Source: Hymenobacter siberiensis (GTDB taxonomy: Bacteria > Bacteroidota > Bacteroidia > Cytophagales > Hymenobacteraceae). From it: a stretch of 64,000 nt of DNA. A model generated the notes under the pieces. It ran no database searches. It saw only the letters and a list, made by a program, of their open reading frames with translations, and had not been told where the DNA came from. The DNA is taken from contig NZ_JAHLZY020000001.1 in NCBI RefSeq assembly GCF_018967865.2, forward strand, positions 124,001-188,000. Direction: 5' to 3'. The position numbers and the translations under genes are program-made. Below are positions 11,326-22,850 of this stretch, in pieces. How positions within the stretch are numbered: position 1 is the stretch's first letter; each line of letters begins with the position of its first letter.

Positions 11326-13326
11326 GTGCCCAACCCGCTGCTCACCGTTTCCAACCTCACCATCGACTTCTCCAGCCACCGCGGCGACGTGCGGGCCGTG
11401 GACAACGTGTCGTTTGAGCTGCACCGGGGCGAAACGCTGGCCATTGTGGGCGAATCCGGCTCGGGCAAATCCGTGACGTCGCTGGCGCTGCTGGGGCTGA
11501 TTCCGATGCCGCCCGGCCGCATTGCCAGCGGCGAGGCCCTCTTCCAGTCCGAAAAGCTGGGCCAGACCGACCTGCTGAAACTCTCCGAAACCGACCTGCG
11601 CCAGGTGCGCGGCAACGACATCGGCATGATTTTCCAGGAGCCGATGACCTCGCTGAACCCCGTGTACACCTGCGGCAGCCAGGTGGTGGAAGCCCTGCGC
11701 CTGCACACCGACCTCACCGAGGCTGCCGCCAAGCAGCGTACCATCGAGCTGTTCACCGAGGCGCAGTTGCCGCGCCCCGAAGCCATTTTCAGCAGCTATC
11801 CGCACGAAATCTCGGGCGGCCAGAAGCAGCGCGTGATGATTGCCATGGCCATGGCCTGCCGCCCGGCCCTGCTCATCGCCGACGAGCCCACCACCGCCCT
11901 CGACGTGACGGTGCAGGCCCAGATGCTGCGCCTCATCGACGACCTGCGCCGCCAGCGCAACACGGCCGTGCTCTTCATCACCCACGACCTGGGCGTGGTG
12001 GCCGAAATCGCCGACCGCATTCTGGTCATGTATCGGGGCAAAGTCGTGGAGCAGGGGAGGGTGCTGGATATTTTTTCAAATCCGCAACATCCGTACACAA
12101 AAGGCCTTTTGGCGTGCCGTCCACGCCTCTCTGTGGGTAAAAAACGCCTGCCCGTAGTGGCCGATTTCATGGGGCAAGATGCCAGCGGCCAGCTTTTCGC
12201 CCAGCCCGCTCCCGTGGTTGCGCTGGAAGATGAGGCGCTTACGGATTCGTCGCCCGAAATTGAGGCTCAGCATTTACACGATAAAACTGATACTGCCAAA
12301 ACGTTCCCCGTGGAACATGGCGTTTTGGGGGATGTTCCACGGGTGGAAACGGGTGCGGCTCCGTTCACCTCACCTCCTGAACTCCTCTCCAAAAAAGAGG
12401 GGGCACCGGTTCGTGAGGACGATTCTTCAACTGAACTCACCAAGAGCATTTCCGGTGCCCCCTCTTTTTTGGAGAGGGGGTCAGGGGGTGAGGTTTCGTC
12501 CGCGCCTCTCCTCGAAGTCCTGAACCTCCAGGTCTACTTCCCCCTCCGCAAGGGCTTCTTCCGCCGCGCCACCGATTACGTCCGCGCCGTGGACGATGTC
12601 AGCTTCACGCTCTACCCCGGCGAAACCATCGGCCTCGTGGGCGAGTCGGGCTGCGGCAAAACCACCCTCGGCCGGGCACTGCTCCGCCTCACGGAACCAA
12701 CGGCGGGCAGCATCCTGTTTGAAGGGACCGATTTGGCGAAGCTGTCGAGCGGGGATTTACGCCGCCGTCGGCGCGATTTGCAACTGGTGTTCCAGGACCC
12801 ATACGCCGCGCTGAATCCGATGCTGACCGTGGGCGAGGCTATCTGGGAGCCCATGCGGGTGCACAACGTGGGCGGCACGCGCCAGCAGCAGAAGGCGAAG
12901 GTGTTGGAGCTGCTACGCACCGTAGGGCTGCGCGACGAGCATTTCCAGCGCTACCCGCACGAGTTCAGCGGCGGGCAGCGGCAGCGCATCTGCATTGCCC
13001 GGGCGCTGGCTTTGCAGCCCAAATTGATTGTCTGCGACGAGTCGGTTTCGGCCCTCGATGTTTCGGTGCAGGCGCAGGTGCTGAACCTGCTCAACGACCT
13101 CAAGCGCGAGTTCGGCATCACCTATCTGTTCATCACGCACGACCTGTCCGTGGCTCGGTTTATGAGCGACCGGCTGCTGGTCATGCATCAGGGCCGCATT
13201 GTGGAGAGCGGCCCGGCGGCCGCCATCTACGCCGCCCCGCAGCACGAATACACCCAAGGCCTGCTGGCCGCTATTCCCAAAGACAGCCTGGCCGACATCG
13301 AAGCGGCCGTAGCCAGCCGGGCGTAA
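11326..13326 (+). CDS. Fused dipeptide/oligopeptide ABC transporter ATPase (DppD-DppF type)
   Basis: The 666-residue protein joins two ATP-binding cassettes. The first has Walker A GESGSGKS (residues 42-49), signature SGGQKQR (about 162) and LLIADEPT (about 183). The second has GESGCGKT (about 439), SGGQRQR (about 547) and LIVCDES (about 567). Each carries the HPYTKGLL / HEYTQGLL tail typical of peptide and nickel importers. The start is GTG 11326; no better ATG exists. The linker, about residues 328-390, is translated from palindromic repeat DNA. No permease or binding protein is adjacent, so the substrate is inferred from family only. Confidence 0.93.
12307..12493. repeat. Two nested-type palindromes inside the ABC ATPase gene (family C copy plus a 12-bp inverted repeat)
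   Basis: First, CCCGTGGAACAT (12307-12318) pairs with ATGTTCCACGGG (12332-12343). Second, a full family C element (12366-12493) has the inner arm AAAAAAGAGGGGGCACCGG and its inverted copy. Both stay open in the reading frame and encode the interdomain linker, for example [14 protein letters not shown]. Everywhere else in the window family C is intergenic. Confidence 0.88.
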
Positions 13327-17239: not shown

Positions 17240-17349
17240 TGCGGGCTTCAGCCTGCAGTTGCCTGTTACACGCTACTGCAATCCGGGCTGCCTGCGCTGT
17301 CGCTTATTTCTGTTTCTCTATTCTGTTTCCTGCGGGCTGAAGCCCGCAA
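17240..17349. repeat. Inverted repeat between the prenyl synthase and rhomboid genes
   Basis: TGCGGGCTTCAGCCTGCA at the left and TGCGGGCTGAAGCCCGCA at the right are each palindromic and are inverted to one another. About 70 bases separate them. This family is seen once in the window. Confidence 0.75.
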
Positions 17350-18469: not shown

Positions 18470-19090
18470 CTAGTTCAGTAGCCGCTTCTTTTCGAGGCGG
18501 GCCACGCCGCGCAGCAGCTCCGCGCTGTTCGTTATTTGCGTCATCTGCCAATGGTCGCCCAGGCGGCGCATCTTCACTTCCACCACCATCGTGGTATCGT
18601 ATTTGGGCTGCGTCACCTCCAGGCCCACGAAAGCATTGTCGCCCTCCTCCCGGGTGTATTTGATGCCCTTGAACTCGCTGTCCGGGCTCACAATTTTGCT
18701 GGCCAGGCCCGTGAGCGATACGCTGACCGTGCGCTTCGGTGCTGCGGCTGCGGCCGCCTCCAGCGAGCCCGTTTCTACGTAGCGCTGCACTTCCTGGTGG
18801 GCGGCTTTGTCCAGGGCGGGCTTCAGCAGGCGCATGGCTCCGCCCATCATCAGGCTGCCGCCGGGCATCAGCGAAGTCAGGGCCGAACTCTGTTGGGCTA
18901 CGTCATCCACAAGGTGGCTGGTCACGCTGCTCACATCAACGTACTTCTCAAACATCGCCATGTCGTGTGTCTGCACTGCGGCAGCGGCCGAAACCAATGC
19001 GCCACTCGGCCCTTGCTTCAGGTTTCGGTAGTAATAATACCCGCCGGCTGCCAGAGCCAGTAACACAACAAGTAGCAGTAGTTTTTTCAT
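18470..19090 (-). CDS. DUF2939 family exported protein
   Basis: The 206-residue protein has an N-terminal membrane anchor (LLLLVVLLALAAGGYYYY), then AVQTHDMAMFEKYVDVSSVT, which matches the DUF2939 pattern of an alanine-rich helix followed by a YVD segment. The remainder is a mixed domain ending in a basic tail. The role of the family is unknown; it is probably periplasmic and membrane anchored. ATG 19090 is chosen because the upstream extension lacks a signal peptide. Confidence 0.78.
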   Translation of the reverse strand: MKKLLLLVVLLALAAGGYYYYRNLKQGPSGALVSAAAAVQTHDMAMFEKYVDVSSVTSHLVDDVAQQSSALTSLMPGGSLMMGGAMRLLKPALDKAAHQEVQRYVETGSLEAAAAAAPKRTVSVSLTGLASKIVSPDSEFKGIKYTREEGDNAFVGLEVTQPKYDTTMVVEVKMRRLGDHWQMTQITNSAELLRGVARLEKKRLLN

Positions 19091-19221
19091 GGATTCGTAA
19101 GTGGTTAAGTTGAGCTGTAAAATTACCCCAAACCACGTAGCTAACACCGCCCGCCGTGCGCGACCCGCGCACGGCGGCGCCCAACGCGGCACTCTTCAGT
19201 TTCACATCACCCCTCCACTCT

Positions 19222-20073
19222 ATGCCAGCCCCTTCGCATTCCCGCATTCCGGAGCTTCATGGCCATCGTGGCTGCCGGGGCCTGCGCCCCGAGAACACCT
19301 TGCCTTCCTTCCTTCACGCCCTCGCGCTGGGCGTCGATGTGCTGGAAATGGATGTTATCATCTCTGCCGACTACCAGGTTGTCGTTTCCCACGAGCCCTG
19401 GCTCAACCCTGCCATTTGCCTTGACCTGGAGGGCCAGCCCATCGAAAGCAGCCCCACCCCGCGCTTCAACCTCTACCAGATGCCCTATGCCACCATTCGC
19501 CAATGCGACTGCGGCCTGCGGCGTCATCCGGCCTTCCCCGAGCAGGTTTCGGAGCCAGCCCACAAGCCCTTACTCCGCGAAGTACTGGCGGCTGCCGAGG
19601 TCGTAGCACGACCCGCCGGCCGCCCACCAATCCGCTACGCCATTGAAATAAAAAGCGCCCCAGACGGGGATAATATCTTCCACCCAACCCCCGACTACTT
19701 CCTGTCCCTGGTCCTAGCCGAAATCAACAAAGCCCGGGTTTCAGCCCGTGCCACTGTGCTCTGCTTTGACCCGCGCATTCTCCGGCTTGCGCATCAGCAC
19801 CAGCCAGCCCTGGCCACCTGCCTCCTCCTCGAAGCCGACCAGCCCTGGCTTGCCAGCATCCAGGCGCTAGGCTTTGTGCCCACCACATTGGGTCCCGATT
19901 TCGCCACTGTTACAGCCGCATCCGTGCAGCAGGTGCGGAGCCTGTACCCAAGCCTGCGGCTTGTACCCTGGACCGTAAACCAACCGGCCGATATGATGCA
20001 GTTAATCGCCCTCGGCGTGGACGGTATCACTACCGACTACCCCGACCGGTTTTTGGCCCTAACAATCGGGTAG
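19222..20073 (+). CDS. Glycerophosphodiester phosphodiesterase
   Basis: The 283-residue protein hydrolyses glycerophosphodiesters to glycerol-3-phosphate and an alcohol. It shows the GDPD landmarks: HGHRGCRGLRPENT near residue 13 (catalytic His, Arg and Glu), LEMDV near 45 (metal-binding acids), SHEP near 59 and IEIKS near 142. The end has WTVN and the usual GVDGITTDYPD. No signal peptide is seen, so it is probably cytoplasmic. ATG 19222 avoids a low-quality N-terminal extension. The stop precedes the AT-rich parS region. Confidence 0.92.
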   Translation: MPAPSHSRIPELHGHRGCRGLRPENTLPSFLHALALGVDVLEMDVIISADYQVVVSHEPWLNPAICLDLEGQPIESSPTPRFNLYQMPYATIRQCDCGLRRHPAFPEQVSEPAHKPLLREVLAAAEVVARPAGRPPIRYAIEIKSAPDGDNIFHPTPDYFLSLVLAEINKARVSARATVLCFDPRILRLAHQHQPALATCLLLEADQPWLASIQALGFVPTTLGPDFATVTAASVQQVRSLYPSLRLVPWTVNQPADMMQLIALGVDGITTDYPDRFLALTIG

Positions 20074-20169
20074 CATCATGCCTGCAGGCAGGCCGCATTT
20101 TGTTCCGGGCTTGTGCTGTATCGTTCTGACCGGATAGTTGCCTGTTGTATCAAGTAGCGTTTGTACCCA

Positions 20170-20593
20170 TGTTACAGCTGTTGATTGTAACGCGTGGCAA
20201 ATAACGACTGTATCAGTATTTTGTAATAATGTAACAATACTTCCTGAGCAAAACAACATTGTTACAAGTGTAATTTTTGTGTCACTGTATTTGTTTAATC
20301 GGCTTTCATTAAACATATTTACATAAGCGTTACGTAATACCTTTTCTATGCCACATCAGGGCGAAATCCTTCAAGATGCCATCAAAAACAGCGGTATTTC
20401 AATCACTCGTATTGTCGAGGAGTTGGGTATTACACGCCCGACTATCTACCGTAAATTCAAGGATGAAACAGTTGATTACAGCTTTGTAAAGAAAGTCGGC
20501 GATATAATCAATTACGATTTTTCAGCTGAATTTACTGTGTTACAGCAGGCCGATTCATCGGTTGTAACGCCGGTTGCTAAAGCGGTTGTTACA
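20170..20593. repeat. Array of TGTTACA / TGTAACA motifs around the HTH gene
   Basis: Exact copies begin at 20170, 20230 and 20260 in the promoter region and at 20538 and 20587 inside the gene. Six-base versions (TGTAAC) begin at 20186 and 20563. The copy at 20259-20267 is TTGTTACAA. Such density is far above chance, and the copies continue into the coding region. They could be the operator of the encoded HTH protein, or a multi-site locus for a DNA-organising protein. Confidence 0.7.
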
Positions 20594-20734
20594 AATACTG
20601 TCACACCTCGTATGATACAGACGCTTAATACCGACCCTGACCACTCTAAACAGCTATTAGCGCTTCAGATTAAGTACATAGCCCTCCTTGAAGCTTATAA
20701 TGAGCTCTTGCTAAAAGTGTATGGCCCGAAGTGA
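20348..20734 (+). CDS. Small helix-turn-helix DNA-binding protein next to parS
   Basis: The 128-residue protein has an N-terminal HTH (about residues 5-50) with ITRIVEELGITRPTIYRKF, a classic helix-turn-recognition helix. A variable middle follows, then a C-terminal helix (LLALQIKYIALLEAYNELLLKV) that could be a dimerising coiled coil. No named family is recognised. Base composition is AT-richer than the flanking genes. It is surrounded by TGTTACA motifs, and its stop codon lies six bases before a parS site. Self-regulation or a role in chromosome organisation is inferred from this context only. Confidence 0.75.
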   Translation: MPHQGEILQDAIKNSGISITRIVEELGITRPTIYRKFKDETVDYSFVKKVGDIINYDFSAEFTVLQQADSSVVTPVAKAVVTNTVTPRMIQTLNTDPDHSKQLLALQIKYIALLEAYNELLLKVYGPK

Positions 20735-20740
20735 CAAAAA

Positions 20741-20756
20741 TGTTCCACGTGAAACA
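20741..20756. other. parS-type centromere site (ParB-binding)
   Basis: TGTTCCACGTGAAACA matches the conserved ParB-binding consensus TGTTnCACGTGAAACA at all 16 positions. It is framed by AAAAA and TTTTT, giving a longer near-palindrome. Its leftward translation would start MFHVEHF. parS sites normally cluster near the replication origin. No parA or parB gene is in the window, so the matching proteins must be elsewhere. Confidence 0.88.
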
Positions 20757-20903
20757 TTTTTGTTTTAACAACTTCTTTTGTAGTCCGATACAGAAGCGCT
20801 GTCGGAACAGAAGTAGGGGTAAGCCCGGGAGAAGTAACCGTCTGCTGAAGCTGGCTTACCGTCCATAACTGATTCAATCTAGACCAGTATCAGTATTACT
20901 TCA

Positions 20904-20990
20904 TGGCATGTAAAGCCGCGATACTTCGCGCCTCCTTGCGTGGGAGTCGTTCAACGAGGAGCCGCGAAGTGTCGCGGCTCTACATGCCGT
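20904..20990. repeat. Inverted repeat in the 20757-21350 gene-free stretch
   Basis: GGCATGTAAAGCCGCGATAC and its inverted, slightly diverged copy lie either side of about 18 bases. The rest of 20757-21350 holds no credible gene; a short leftward frame at 21070-21291 has no recognisable features. Confidence 0.75.
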
Positions 20991-21350
20991 GTACGTGTAG
21001 CTTTGGATAGCGCGCTATAGGCGCTGCTCCCATTGTGAGTGTTATCCGTGGCTCGACTGGCCGAGCCCGTTAAATAAATTGCCAGCAGGGTAAGGGGGCG
21101 AATCGGTCAGCGTCGTGCCGGCAGACAAACGCTCGGCCAGGCTGAATCACTAAACTGCTGCGGTTTTTTAAAGTATACGCCGAGTGCAGAGCCCCCCCTT
21201 CATTACCTGCCGAGGGGCGGACAGTATTCGGAATTACAGCTTGCTCGTCGCGCAATGGATTACGAACATCTGGTGGATATGTGAGGTACACAGTGTGGCA
21301 GCTCTATCGCATTCCAGAAACCCGCAATAAATGATATGGTGGGTGGAGGG

Positions 21351-21662
21351 CTAAAGGAAGATGACTTCCGTTACGACTTTCTCCCCGACCTCCGCATTAA
21401 TGAGTTCGGCCACGCGGGTCTTGGCCATGAGCAGCTCGTGCTTGAGCGGTGCGGAGCTGAGGCGCACAAATAGCCGGCCTTTATTAACGTACACCTCCTG
21501 GGTCTTCAACGCCACTGCCTTCCCCATCACCCGCTCCCAGCTCGATACCACCGTTACCTCGTTGAGCTTGCCCTGGAGCCGGTATGCCCGAACCAATGCT
21601 TCGAGGCCTTCCTTGAGCGGAATGATATCGCCGGAGCGGGAGAAAGCGGAAGGTTTTTTCAC
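21351..21662 (-). CDS. DUF721 protein, DciA-like replicative helicase loader candidate
   Basis: The 103-residue protein has the DUF721 pattern: LVRAYRLQGKLNEVTVVSSWERVMG, then VYVNKGRLFVRLSSAPLKHELLMAK. DUF721/DciA proteins load the replicative helicase DnaB in bacteria that lack DnaC or DnaI. It starts with GTG at 21662, with no ATG available. It follows recF on the same strand by 72 bases, a pairing often seen near bacterial origins. Involvement in replication is inferred from family and neighbours. Confidence 0.85.
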   Translation of the reverse strand: MKKPSAFSRSGDIIPLKEGLEALVRAYRLQGKLNEVTVVSSWERVMGKAVALKTQEVYVNKGRLFVRLSSAPLKHELLMAKTRVAELINAEVGEKVVTEVIFL

Positions 21663-21734
21663 GAGGGTTCAGAGCAAAGTCAGCCAGCGGAAGGATGCCG
21701 GTTGAGCAGCCACAAAGGTACTGCCGCCCGCTGC

Positions 21735-22850
21735 CTAAACGGGTGCCACGGTACCATTCTGCACCCGAAACCTAAGGATGGGAACGGTTACCCGCGCCAG
21801 GGCTTGGTCGGTGCGTTCCAGGTTGGTATCGGTCAGAAAAACCTGGCCGAAGGTTTCGTCGGCCACCAGCTCCAGCAGGCGTGCAATGCGCTTGTCATCG
21901 AGGCGGTCGAATATATCATCGAGCAGGAGCAGGGGCTTGTTGTGCTGCTTGGCCGCCAGCAGCTCAAACTGGGCAAGCTTGAGGGCAATGGCAAACGACT
22001 TCTGCTGGCCCTGAGAGGCGTAGCTTTTCACGGGCAGCTCATTCATCAAAAACATAAAGTCGTCGCGGTGCGCGCCCACGGTGCTGCGTTGCAGCACGAA
22101 GTCCTTGCGCTCATTCAGGCGTAGCAGCTGGGCAAAGTCGGCCCCTACCAGCTGGCTCTTATAAGTAAGCATTACCTGCTCACGGCCGTCGGCCAGCTGC
22201 TCGTAGTGCCGCTGAAAGATGGGGAGGTAGTCGATAAGAAAAGCCTCGCGCAGCGCCGTGAGCTGTTGGCCCAACGGCGCCAGCTGCTCATCGAGCGCCA
22301 GCAGGTAGTCGCGGTCGAAGCCGTGGGCGTTGCTGTACCCGCCTTGCTTGAGTACGGCATTGCGCTGGCGCAGTAAGGAGTTGTAGGAGATGAGCTGCTC
22401 CAGAAACGCGTGGTCGAGTTGCGCCATGAGGCTGTCGAAATACTTGCGGCGCTCTTCGCTGCCCTGGCGAATAAGGTCGGTATCATACGGCGAGATAAGC
22501 ACGGCAGGGTAGCGGCCAATGTGGTCGGCCATGCGCTCATAGGGCTGTTTATCGTGGGTAACGGTCTTTTTTTGCCCCTGGCGCAGGCTCACCTGGATGG
22601 TTTCTTTGTCAGGCGTCGTATTTGAAGAAAAAATACCCTTAACTACAAAGAAATCAGCGTCTTGTTTTATACAAAGGGCGTCGGAAGCCGTGATGGCGCT
22701 TTTGGTCAGCGATAGGTAATGAATGGCATCCAACAAGTTGGTTTTGCCGCTCCCATTGTCACCGATGAAGCAATTGAGGCCGGGCGATAAACGAAGCGCG
22801 GCATCGTCGTAATTTTTAAAAAAAAGAAGCTGGAGGGAGTCAAGAGTCAT
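21735..22850 (-). CDS. recF: DNA replication and repair protein RecF
   Basis: The 371-residue SMC-like ATPase helps load RecA at single-strand gaps. Walker A GDNGSGKT occupies residues 30-37, the signature SQGQQKSFAIALK lies near 280, and Walker B LLLLDDIFDRLDD near 310. ATG 22850 is chosen because the longer frame adds 15 residues before MTLDSLQLL, where RecF proteins normally begin. It is divergent from pdhA, with only 74 bases between the starts. Confidence 0.95.
   Translation of the reverse strand: MTLDSLQLLFFKNYDDAALRLSPGLNCFIGDNGSGKTNLLDAIHYLSLTKSAITASDALCIKQDADFFVVKGIFSSNTTPDKETIQVSLRQGQKKTVTHDKQPYERMADHIGRYPAVLISPYDTDLIRQGSEERRKYFDSLMAQLDHAFLEQLISYNSLLRQRNAVLKQGGYSNAHGFDRDYLLALDEQLAPLGQQLTALREAFLIDYLPIFQRHYEQLADGREQVMLTYKSQLVGADFAQLLRLNERKDFVLQRSTVGAHRDDFMFLMNELPVKSYASQGQQKSFAIALKLAQFELLAAKQHNKPLLLLDDIFDRLDDKRIARLLELVADETFGQVFLTDTNLERTDQALARVTVPILRFRVQNGTVAPV

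Follow-up and report, generated by a model that had tools for sequence, protein, structure and literature searches.

A small helix-turn-helix gene carrying TGTTACA arrays beside parS in Hymenobacter, a putative partner of a bacterial centromere

A gene for a 128-residue helix-turn-helix (HTH) protein of Hymenobacter siberiensis was found to end directly before a parS site and to carry copies of a 7-bp word, TGTTACA, both in its promoter and within its own coding region. We propose that the locus is a centromere with a dedicated SinR-like protein that regulates its own gene, and that the site arrays of this protein make up one nucleoprotein unit together with parS; we assign this reading a probability of roughly 0.55. 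The data suggest, at the level of sequence, that the small HTH protein is a previously undescribed partner of a bacterial centromere; no description of the HTH-parS arrangement was found among the open-access papers listed, nor, by title, any on parS in Hymenobacter. The comparisons of relatives established the arrays, their conservation, selection on the coding cluster at the DNA level, and the fixed spacing to parS.

Layout of the locus and abundance of TGTTACA

The features of the locus are collected in Table 1, with positions given for the window, the whole 64,000-nucleotide stretch of DNA analysed. The HTH gene is flanked upstream by a GDPD-like gene and downstream by a DUF721 gene, presumably dciA, and by recF. 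Genome-wide, this parS is the sole match to TGTTYCACGTGRAACA, the 16-bp parS palindrome, when one mismatch is allowed, and its own sequence lies one mismatch from what we take to be the symmetric parS consensus. An Rfam scan of 19000-22000 gave no matches.

Table 1. Coordinates of the features of the HTH-parS locus and the basis of each assignment
Feature	Position	Strand	Basis
TGTTACA, promoter cluster	20170..20176	+	exact-word search; cluster conserved
6-base version TGTAAC, promoter cluster	20186..20191		read from sequence
TGTTACA, promoter cluster	20230..20236	-	exact-word search
TGTTACA, promoter cluster	20260..20266	+	exact-word search
Possible core promoter, TTTG ... CATATTTACA, 3' of promoter cluster	20290..20323	+	by eye
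Partial motif GCGTTACG, closely 3' of possible -7 element	20327..20334	+	place by eye
HTH protein gene, 128 aa	20348..20734	+	HTH_7 Pfam match, AlphaFold2 model, homologue in 61/61 genus genomes
Disordered-linker codons (residues 61-96), carrying the intragenic cluster	20528..20635	+	motif mapping, AlphaFold2, VT codon count
TGTTACA in linker codons (V-L-Q)	20538..20544	+	exact-word search
6-base version TGTAAC in linker codons	20563..20568		read from sequence
TGTTACA in linker codons (V-V-T)	20587..20593	+	exact-word search
Extended dyad around parS, ACAAAAA...TTTTTGT	20734..20763		dyad analysis, RNA folding
parS, TGTTCCACGTGAAACA, 6 nt past HTH stop codon	20741..20756		genome-wide pattern search, relatives

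A preliminary description of this DNA had reported five exact 7-mers in both orientations, in the promoter and in the coding region, together with two 6-mers and a chance expectation well below one. All seven words were present, and the expectation was borne out: 5000 dinucleotide shuffles of 20080-20740 gave a mean of 0.22 copies and a maximum of 4, so that none reached the 5 observed. Elsewhere in the window TGTTACA occurs at 17264, 19908 (within the upstream gene) and 58716, and it is rare genome-wide, with 74 copies in 4.83 Mb versus 244 for the word read backwards. Chance repeats in AT-rich DNA might be invoked, as the HTH gene is AT-rich (43% GC), but this was judged exceedingly unlikely from the shuffles and from a conservation across 73 loci that also lies beyond shuffled expectation.

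In a search for a possible regulon, close pairs of TGTTACA were numerous at the HTH-parS locus among the matches listed, with others elsewhere in some genomes; in the window's own genome the pair pattern used gave 0 hits, versus 5 for the reversed control, again among the matches listed. Two other pairs within 100 bp in the same genome (G000:C1:4301808/4301898 and 4368157/4368240) had no evident link to segregation, and the 6 kb of the parAB region contained no TGTTACA.

The arrays had also been called iteron-like. This term was found to be only loosely apt: the orientation of the repeats is mixed and the upstream spacing is irregular. Replication iterons are evenly spaced direct repeats at an origin. 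The idea that the locus is an iteron system or a remnant plasmid origin draws on the combination of an HTH gene, a nearby origin and multiple short repeats. It was considered very improbable in view of the mixed orientation and spacing, a DnaA-box cluster that stands apart at a distance of about 24 kb, and searches with the HTH protein, in which phages gave no match and plasmids a single weak one over 45% of its length. A replication iteron system was rejected, as the repeats are not evenly spaced direct repeats and the predicted oriC lies elsewhere.

Conservation of the arrays, the linker and the parS spacing

A homologue of the HTH gene was found in 61/61 genomes of the genus and in 35/60 of a family sample, the latter being partly diverged homologues. 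The main comparison used 73 distinct loci. Hymenobacter supplied 65 of them, 60 from as many of the 61 genus genomes and 5 others, and genus g5 (Solirubrum-type) supplied 8. The remaining genome, G011, whose HTH gene is interrupted by a contig break, did not enter these counts; there too parS lies 6 nt behind the stop of the fragment. The preliminary description had named conservation in related genomes, both of the motifs and of the adjacency to parS, as the check on its proposal. Both were observed: at least one exact 7-mer was present in the coding region at 68/73 loci and in the 260 bases upstream at 67/73, and parS was at the HTH gene end in 73/73. The five loci lacking an exact coding 7-mer, three of them among the eight of g5, have kept parS; the intragenic cluster is therefore no absolute requirement.

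TGTTACA was the top 7-mer both in the 300 bases upstream (167 copies) and in the coding regions (164 copies) of the 73 loci. The coding count compares with 46.7±5.7 in synonymous-codon shuffles, and the 164 copies in the 260 bases upstream compare with 17±4.3 in Markov simulations, in both cases with no down-weighting of related sequences. In a profile from −1.5 kb to +1 kb relative to parS, two peaks were resolved, at about −700 to −400 (167 copies) and at −200 to −100 (158 copies), with 6 copies from −400 to −200, 5 in the kilobase past parS and 4 upstream of −700. The profiles of TGATACA and TGTAA resembled that of TGTTACA. A control word, ACATTGT, was also raised in the AT-rich upstream stretch, with 25 copies versus 151 of TGTTACA from −600 to −400. 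Two 7-mers exactly 5 bp apart were present in 18/73 main loci, a separation that we infer would suit a dimer.

Words like the putative core promoter were seen by eye at a similar place in many of 30 upstream sequences, and a strict Bacteroidetes promoter consensus, in the version we assumed, was found in just 2/73 loci. GCGTTAC, in either orientation, occurred within 300 bases upstream in 19 of 20 loci counted, these 20 being taken from the 73.

The coding sites sit in an otherwise variable linker, where across the 73 loci they occur in both orientations and at shifting positions with the motif kept. Most are in frame as xVT, which raises the possibility that selection on the protein favors Val-Thr repeats and that the DNA motif is a by-product. 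The codon data argue strongly against this. The dipeptide VT was found at 8.62 per 100 residues of linker versus 0.34 in 41 control genes of the window's genome, and it was spelled T|GTW|ACA in 149/200 linker cases versus 2/53 in the control genes. The commonest control spelling, GTGACC (15/53), was not among the six commonest of the linker. Furthermore, 12/164 sites are read in another frame, as V-L-Q or similar, and the same 7-mer tops the non-coding upstream region. The by-product explanation is thus highly unlikely. From the spelling bias it was deduced that the DNA dictates the peptide in the linker, and the counts demonstrate, as far as sequence can, that the arrays, including the coding-region cluster, have been selected as DNA.

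The parS site was present at the HTH gene end in 61/61 genus genomes; 59 have the exact sequence, and G017 and G023 deviate from it by one mismatch. The same position was found in 53/53 named Hymenobacter/Solirubrum records (3 of them MAGs) of a second collection, which partly overlaps the first genome set and from which two remote proteobacterial matches were excluded out of 55 loci returned. No other site within one mismatch was found in 55/61 genus genomes; the other six (G004, G010, G016, G027, G029 and G030) have one extra one-mismatch site 8-10 kb from parS. The distance from the stop codon to parS was 5-8 nt (sd 0.7, n=73). For the loci with a usable neighbour match, the gap from parS to dciA was 38-1252 (n=55), and that from the upstream gene to the HTH start was 162-392 (n=66). 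Since the whole block is syntenic across the genomes compared, the adjacency of the HTH gene and parS is by itself weak evidence.

In a separate observation, a degenerate parS-like site, CGTTCCCCGTGGAACA, was noted at 12302-12317, within the ABC-transporter gene 11326-13326. A one-mismatch form of parS lies 9-10.5 kb before the main parS in 8/8 genomes of genus g5; in the six g5 loci compared this second site is within the same ABC-transporter gene, and half-parS words are often found close by.

A different account of the spacing would be ordinary autoregulation with an intragenic operator, in which the protein represses itself by bridging of the two clusters, parS landed behind the gene, and its spacing was kept since the dyad is a terminator. 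We give this explanation a sizeable minority chance. The two-cluster layout fits looping, and the RNA from 20725-20780 forms a predicted hairpin of −13.8 kcal/mol (z −2.75), which could end the transcript and so explain the fixed spacing with no need for the protein to act at the centromere. The dyad also reaches about 15 bp on each side of parS, with an excess of Watson-Crick pairs at position 10 (60/73 versus 47.6 under independence). However, the parS strand giving a C.A mismatch in the RNA stem was the commoner one (54/73, versus 18/73 for the strand giving a U.G pair), which is the wrong way for a selected terminator, and a terminator as the sole reason for the spacing was therefore set aside.

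The HTH protein, its paralogues and known parallels

In the AlphaFold2 model, the helices of the HTH part lie between residues 4 and 54, followed by a linker (about 61-96) and a C-terminal helix (97-125). Block means of pLDDT were 79-86 for residues 1-60, 48-59 for 61-100, 88-92 for 101-120 and 73 at the end. A Pfam scan of the protein gave 14 matches in all, with HTH_7 alone above the cut-off and no ParB or ribbon-helix-helix model among them; the model is likewise all-helical and strandless. The best Foldseek matches included SinR, HipB and XRE proteins, although these were weak, with E 0.015 at best (0.03 at best for SinR). The PDB sequence search gave nothing below E 0.6 and no SinR chain, and NCBIfam returned 0 families.

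Evidence on motif recognition was sought in diverged copies of the gene. Fourteen paralogue loci were fetched from genera g1 and g5 and one, L090, was dropped as tblastn had missed the gene, leaving 13 with 27-42% identity. In the 300 bases upstream, 11/13 contain the related word TGAGACA, 19 copies in total, and no copy was seen elsewhere in the DNA fetched for them. Two loci (L081 and L082) read TGAGACA-N4-TGATACA-N4-TGTCTCA, an 11-bp phasing, and a close variant was seen by eye in L084, L089 and L092. Because the paralogues carry TGAGACA and TGATACA, words of the same frame as TGTTACA, in their own promoters, the protein family was tied to words of the form TGnnACA, and the HTH protein probably binds the TGTTACA repeat. 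Since these paralogues have promoter arrays and none has parS within 50 bases past the stop, autoregulation is probably the older role of the family, a point that equally favors ordinary autoregulation as the whole explanation. Against the latter, both TGTTACA and TGAGACA are absent from the coding region in 13/13 of these parS-free paralogues. Nine homologues of genus g3 had no TGTTACA array, with two single copies only; one of the nine has a TGTTACA in its coding region. No parS was found near the seven checked nearby or within 50 bases in all nine. Three further loci of g4 and g6 (L094, L095 and L098), outside both counts, likewise lacked TGTTACA, both upstream and within the coding sequence.

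The preliminary description had offered a small autoregulated locus or an accessory chromosome-organising system. The former was well supported by the paralogue comparison. The latter is a reading of the anatomy, suggested by parS, its fixed 5-8 nt spacing, the proximity of the origin and the association of coding sites with the parS-linked copies.

At the order level, 63/148 genomes matched the HTH protein, and none of the 20 loci inspected (L260-L279) had parS. Small-genome relatives of about 1-2 Mb (family f21; L261-L265 and L268-L270) had 1-5 HTH-family matches, with their 8 fetched loci lacking parS. A diverged second HTH copy was present in 11 genus genomes; it lies 26-38 kb from parB in five (G014:C32, G038:C11, G047:C17, G020:C1 and G005:C1), about 840 kb from it in G023, and on another contig in five others.

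The mechanism proposed for a centromere with its own SinR-like protein is as follows. The protein, SinR/XRE-like, would use its N-terminal HTH to bind 7-bp sites of the TGTTACA type and its C-terminal helix to oligomerise. It would regulate its own gene via the promoter cluster and via the second cluster in its own linker codons, the two being about 350-400 bp apart, a distance that may suit bridging or looping. A protein-DNA complex would then occupy some 450-600 bp beside parS, on the side towards the origin, on DNA shared with ParB spreading from parS. As the least certain step, this complex might couple ParB occupancy, expression of the HTH gene and organisation of the origin region.

Known systems offer parallels. 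MaoP has its own Pfam family, which is missing from the 14 Pfam matches obtained with the HTH protein. In E. coli, MaoP and maoS are described, in the part of the report drawn upon, as a protein and a single site acting on the Ori region (PMC5023128). Unlike that pair, the sites here are repeats, some of them coding, and lie beside parS. SinR of Bacillus subtilis binds 7-bp sites present in several copies and orientations, and its C-terminal part tetramerises; its authors noted, in the sections used here, that DNA looping would be necessary for simultaneous binding to three or more sites (PMC3163267). The present protein resembles SinR in having an HTH, a C-terminal helical part and multiple 7-bp words in mixed orientation to which it is predicted to bind, and SinR is listed by Foldseek; in contrast, those sections of the SinR report (PMC3163267) link SinR neither with parS nor with sites inside its own coding sequence.

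The ribbon-helix-helix ParB (omega) of pSM19035 is a small protein which, according to the part of the source used, controls its own and partner genes via promoter arrays of 7-bp words in the partition locus (PMC9499535). A small putative regulator on arrays of 7-bp words at a partition site is common to both, as far as that part describes the plasmid system, but the protein here is helix-turn-helix rather than ribbon-helix-helix, there is no adjoining parA, and a separate canonical parS would serve a distant ParB. For Bdellovibrio, parS-flanking DNA (fragments of 242 bp and 330 bp) was reported to prevent ParB clustering, and a species-specific factor, not named in the section drawn upon, was suggested (PMC10547168). 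Nothing in that section marks the Bdellovibrio factor as of the HTH-protein kind. These parallels do not make the locus a member of the SinR, pSM19035 omega or Bdellovibrio systems.

If the proposal is true, the locus would show a bacterial centromere equipped in nature with an accessory protein of its own, and its gene would be a coding sequence in which embedded binding sites determine the amino acids. Control of ParB spreading by flanking nucleoprotein complexes, an idea raised in the section on Bdellovibrio (PMC10547168), would also become testable. Even under plain autoregulation, the gene would illustrate unusually clearly how DNA sites can shape a disordered segment of a protein.

Chromosomal position and the history of parS

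The predicted oriC was placed outside the window at about 120.7-122.7 kb of G000:C1 (window −3.3 to −1.3 kb; locus L061 16730-18690), being called by DnaA-box density alone. It consists of many DnaA-box-like words and an AT-rich stretch, does not adjoin dnaA, and lies about 24 kb upstream of parS; the corresponding distance was 22.6-28.6 kb in 7/7 genomes examined from 2 genera. The DnaA-box cluster is a few kilobases downstream of a gene that we take to be mnmG, and the name ybeY used below is likewise our own reading of the sequence. GC skew from sampled stretches was too weak for origin placement.

The genome has a single ParA-ParB operon, the ParB of which matches PF02195 and PF17762, with ParA at about 3.317 Mb, parB at 3.318 Mb and dnaA at 3.490 Mb of G000:C1. 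If this contig is circular, parB and dnaA lie about 1.5 Mb and 1.3 Mb, respectively, from the parS region. The distance between parB and dnaA is 171 kb here and 166-219 kb in G012, G032, G052 and G053, and exceeds 1.4 Mb in G020 and G051. A canonical 16-bp parS near the predicted oriC and a ParB gene, whose product is predicted to bind it, are as in ParABS systems. The remoteness of parB is unlike them, as is a parS neighbour encoding a second, unrelated predicted DNA-binding protein.

In three other genera of the family (g2, g4 and g6), parS was found beside a ybeY-like ORF in 12/15 loci inspected, which suggests that the centromere moved. In the four ybeY loci compared by homology (L141, L143, L148 and L164), mnmG is on the other side of parS; the remaining three of the 15 (L140, L145 and L146) have one-mismatch sites within another gene. 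The ybeY-mnmG gap of G000, G012, G032, G064 and G074, which represent the window's genus and g5, contained no site within one mismatch. In the simplest history, parS would have moved about 30 kb to the other side of the origin in the ancestor that Hymenobacter shares with its sister genus, a direction that we infer from these positions. If true, relocation of a chromosomal parS would be traceable between genera.

A more elaborate reading is a two-protein centromere, in which the lineage of the two genera moved parS beside the array of a second, self-encoding DNA-binding protein. This protein would gate or shape how ParB loads and spreads on the side of the origin, and part of the centromere would have been written into the codons of its linker. 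This version is tentative, and we regard it as possible but rather doubtful.

As a minor observation, G090 of genus g4 has a second one-mismatch parS-like site (L198; G090:C1:1211499) downstream of a rhomboid gene, near the place of the Hymenobacter HTH-parS locus and amid DnaA-box-like words.
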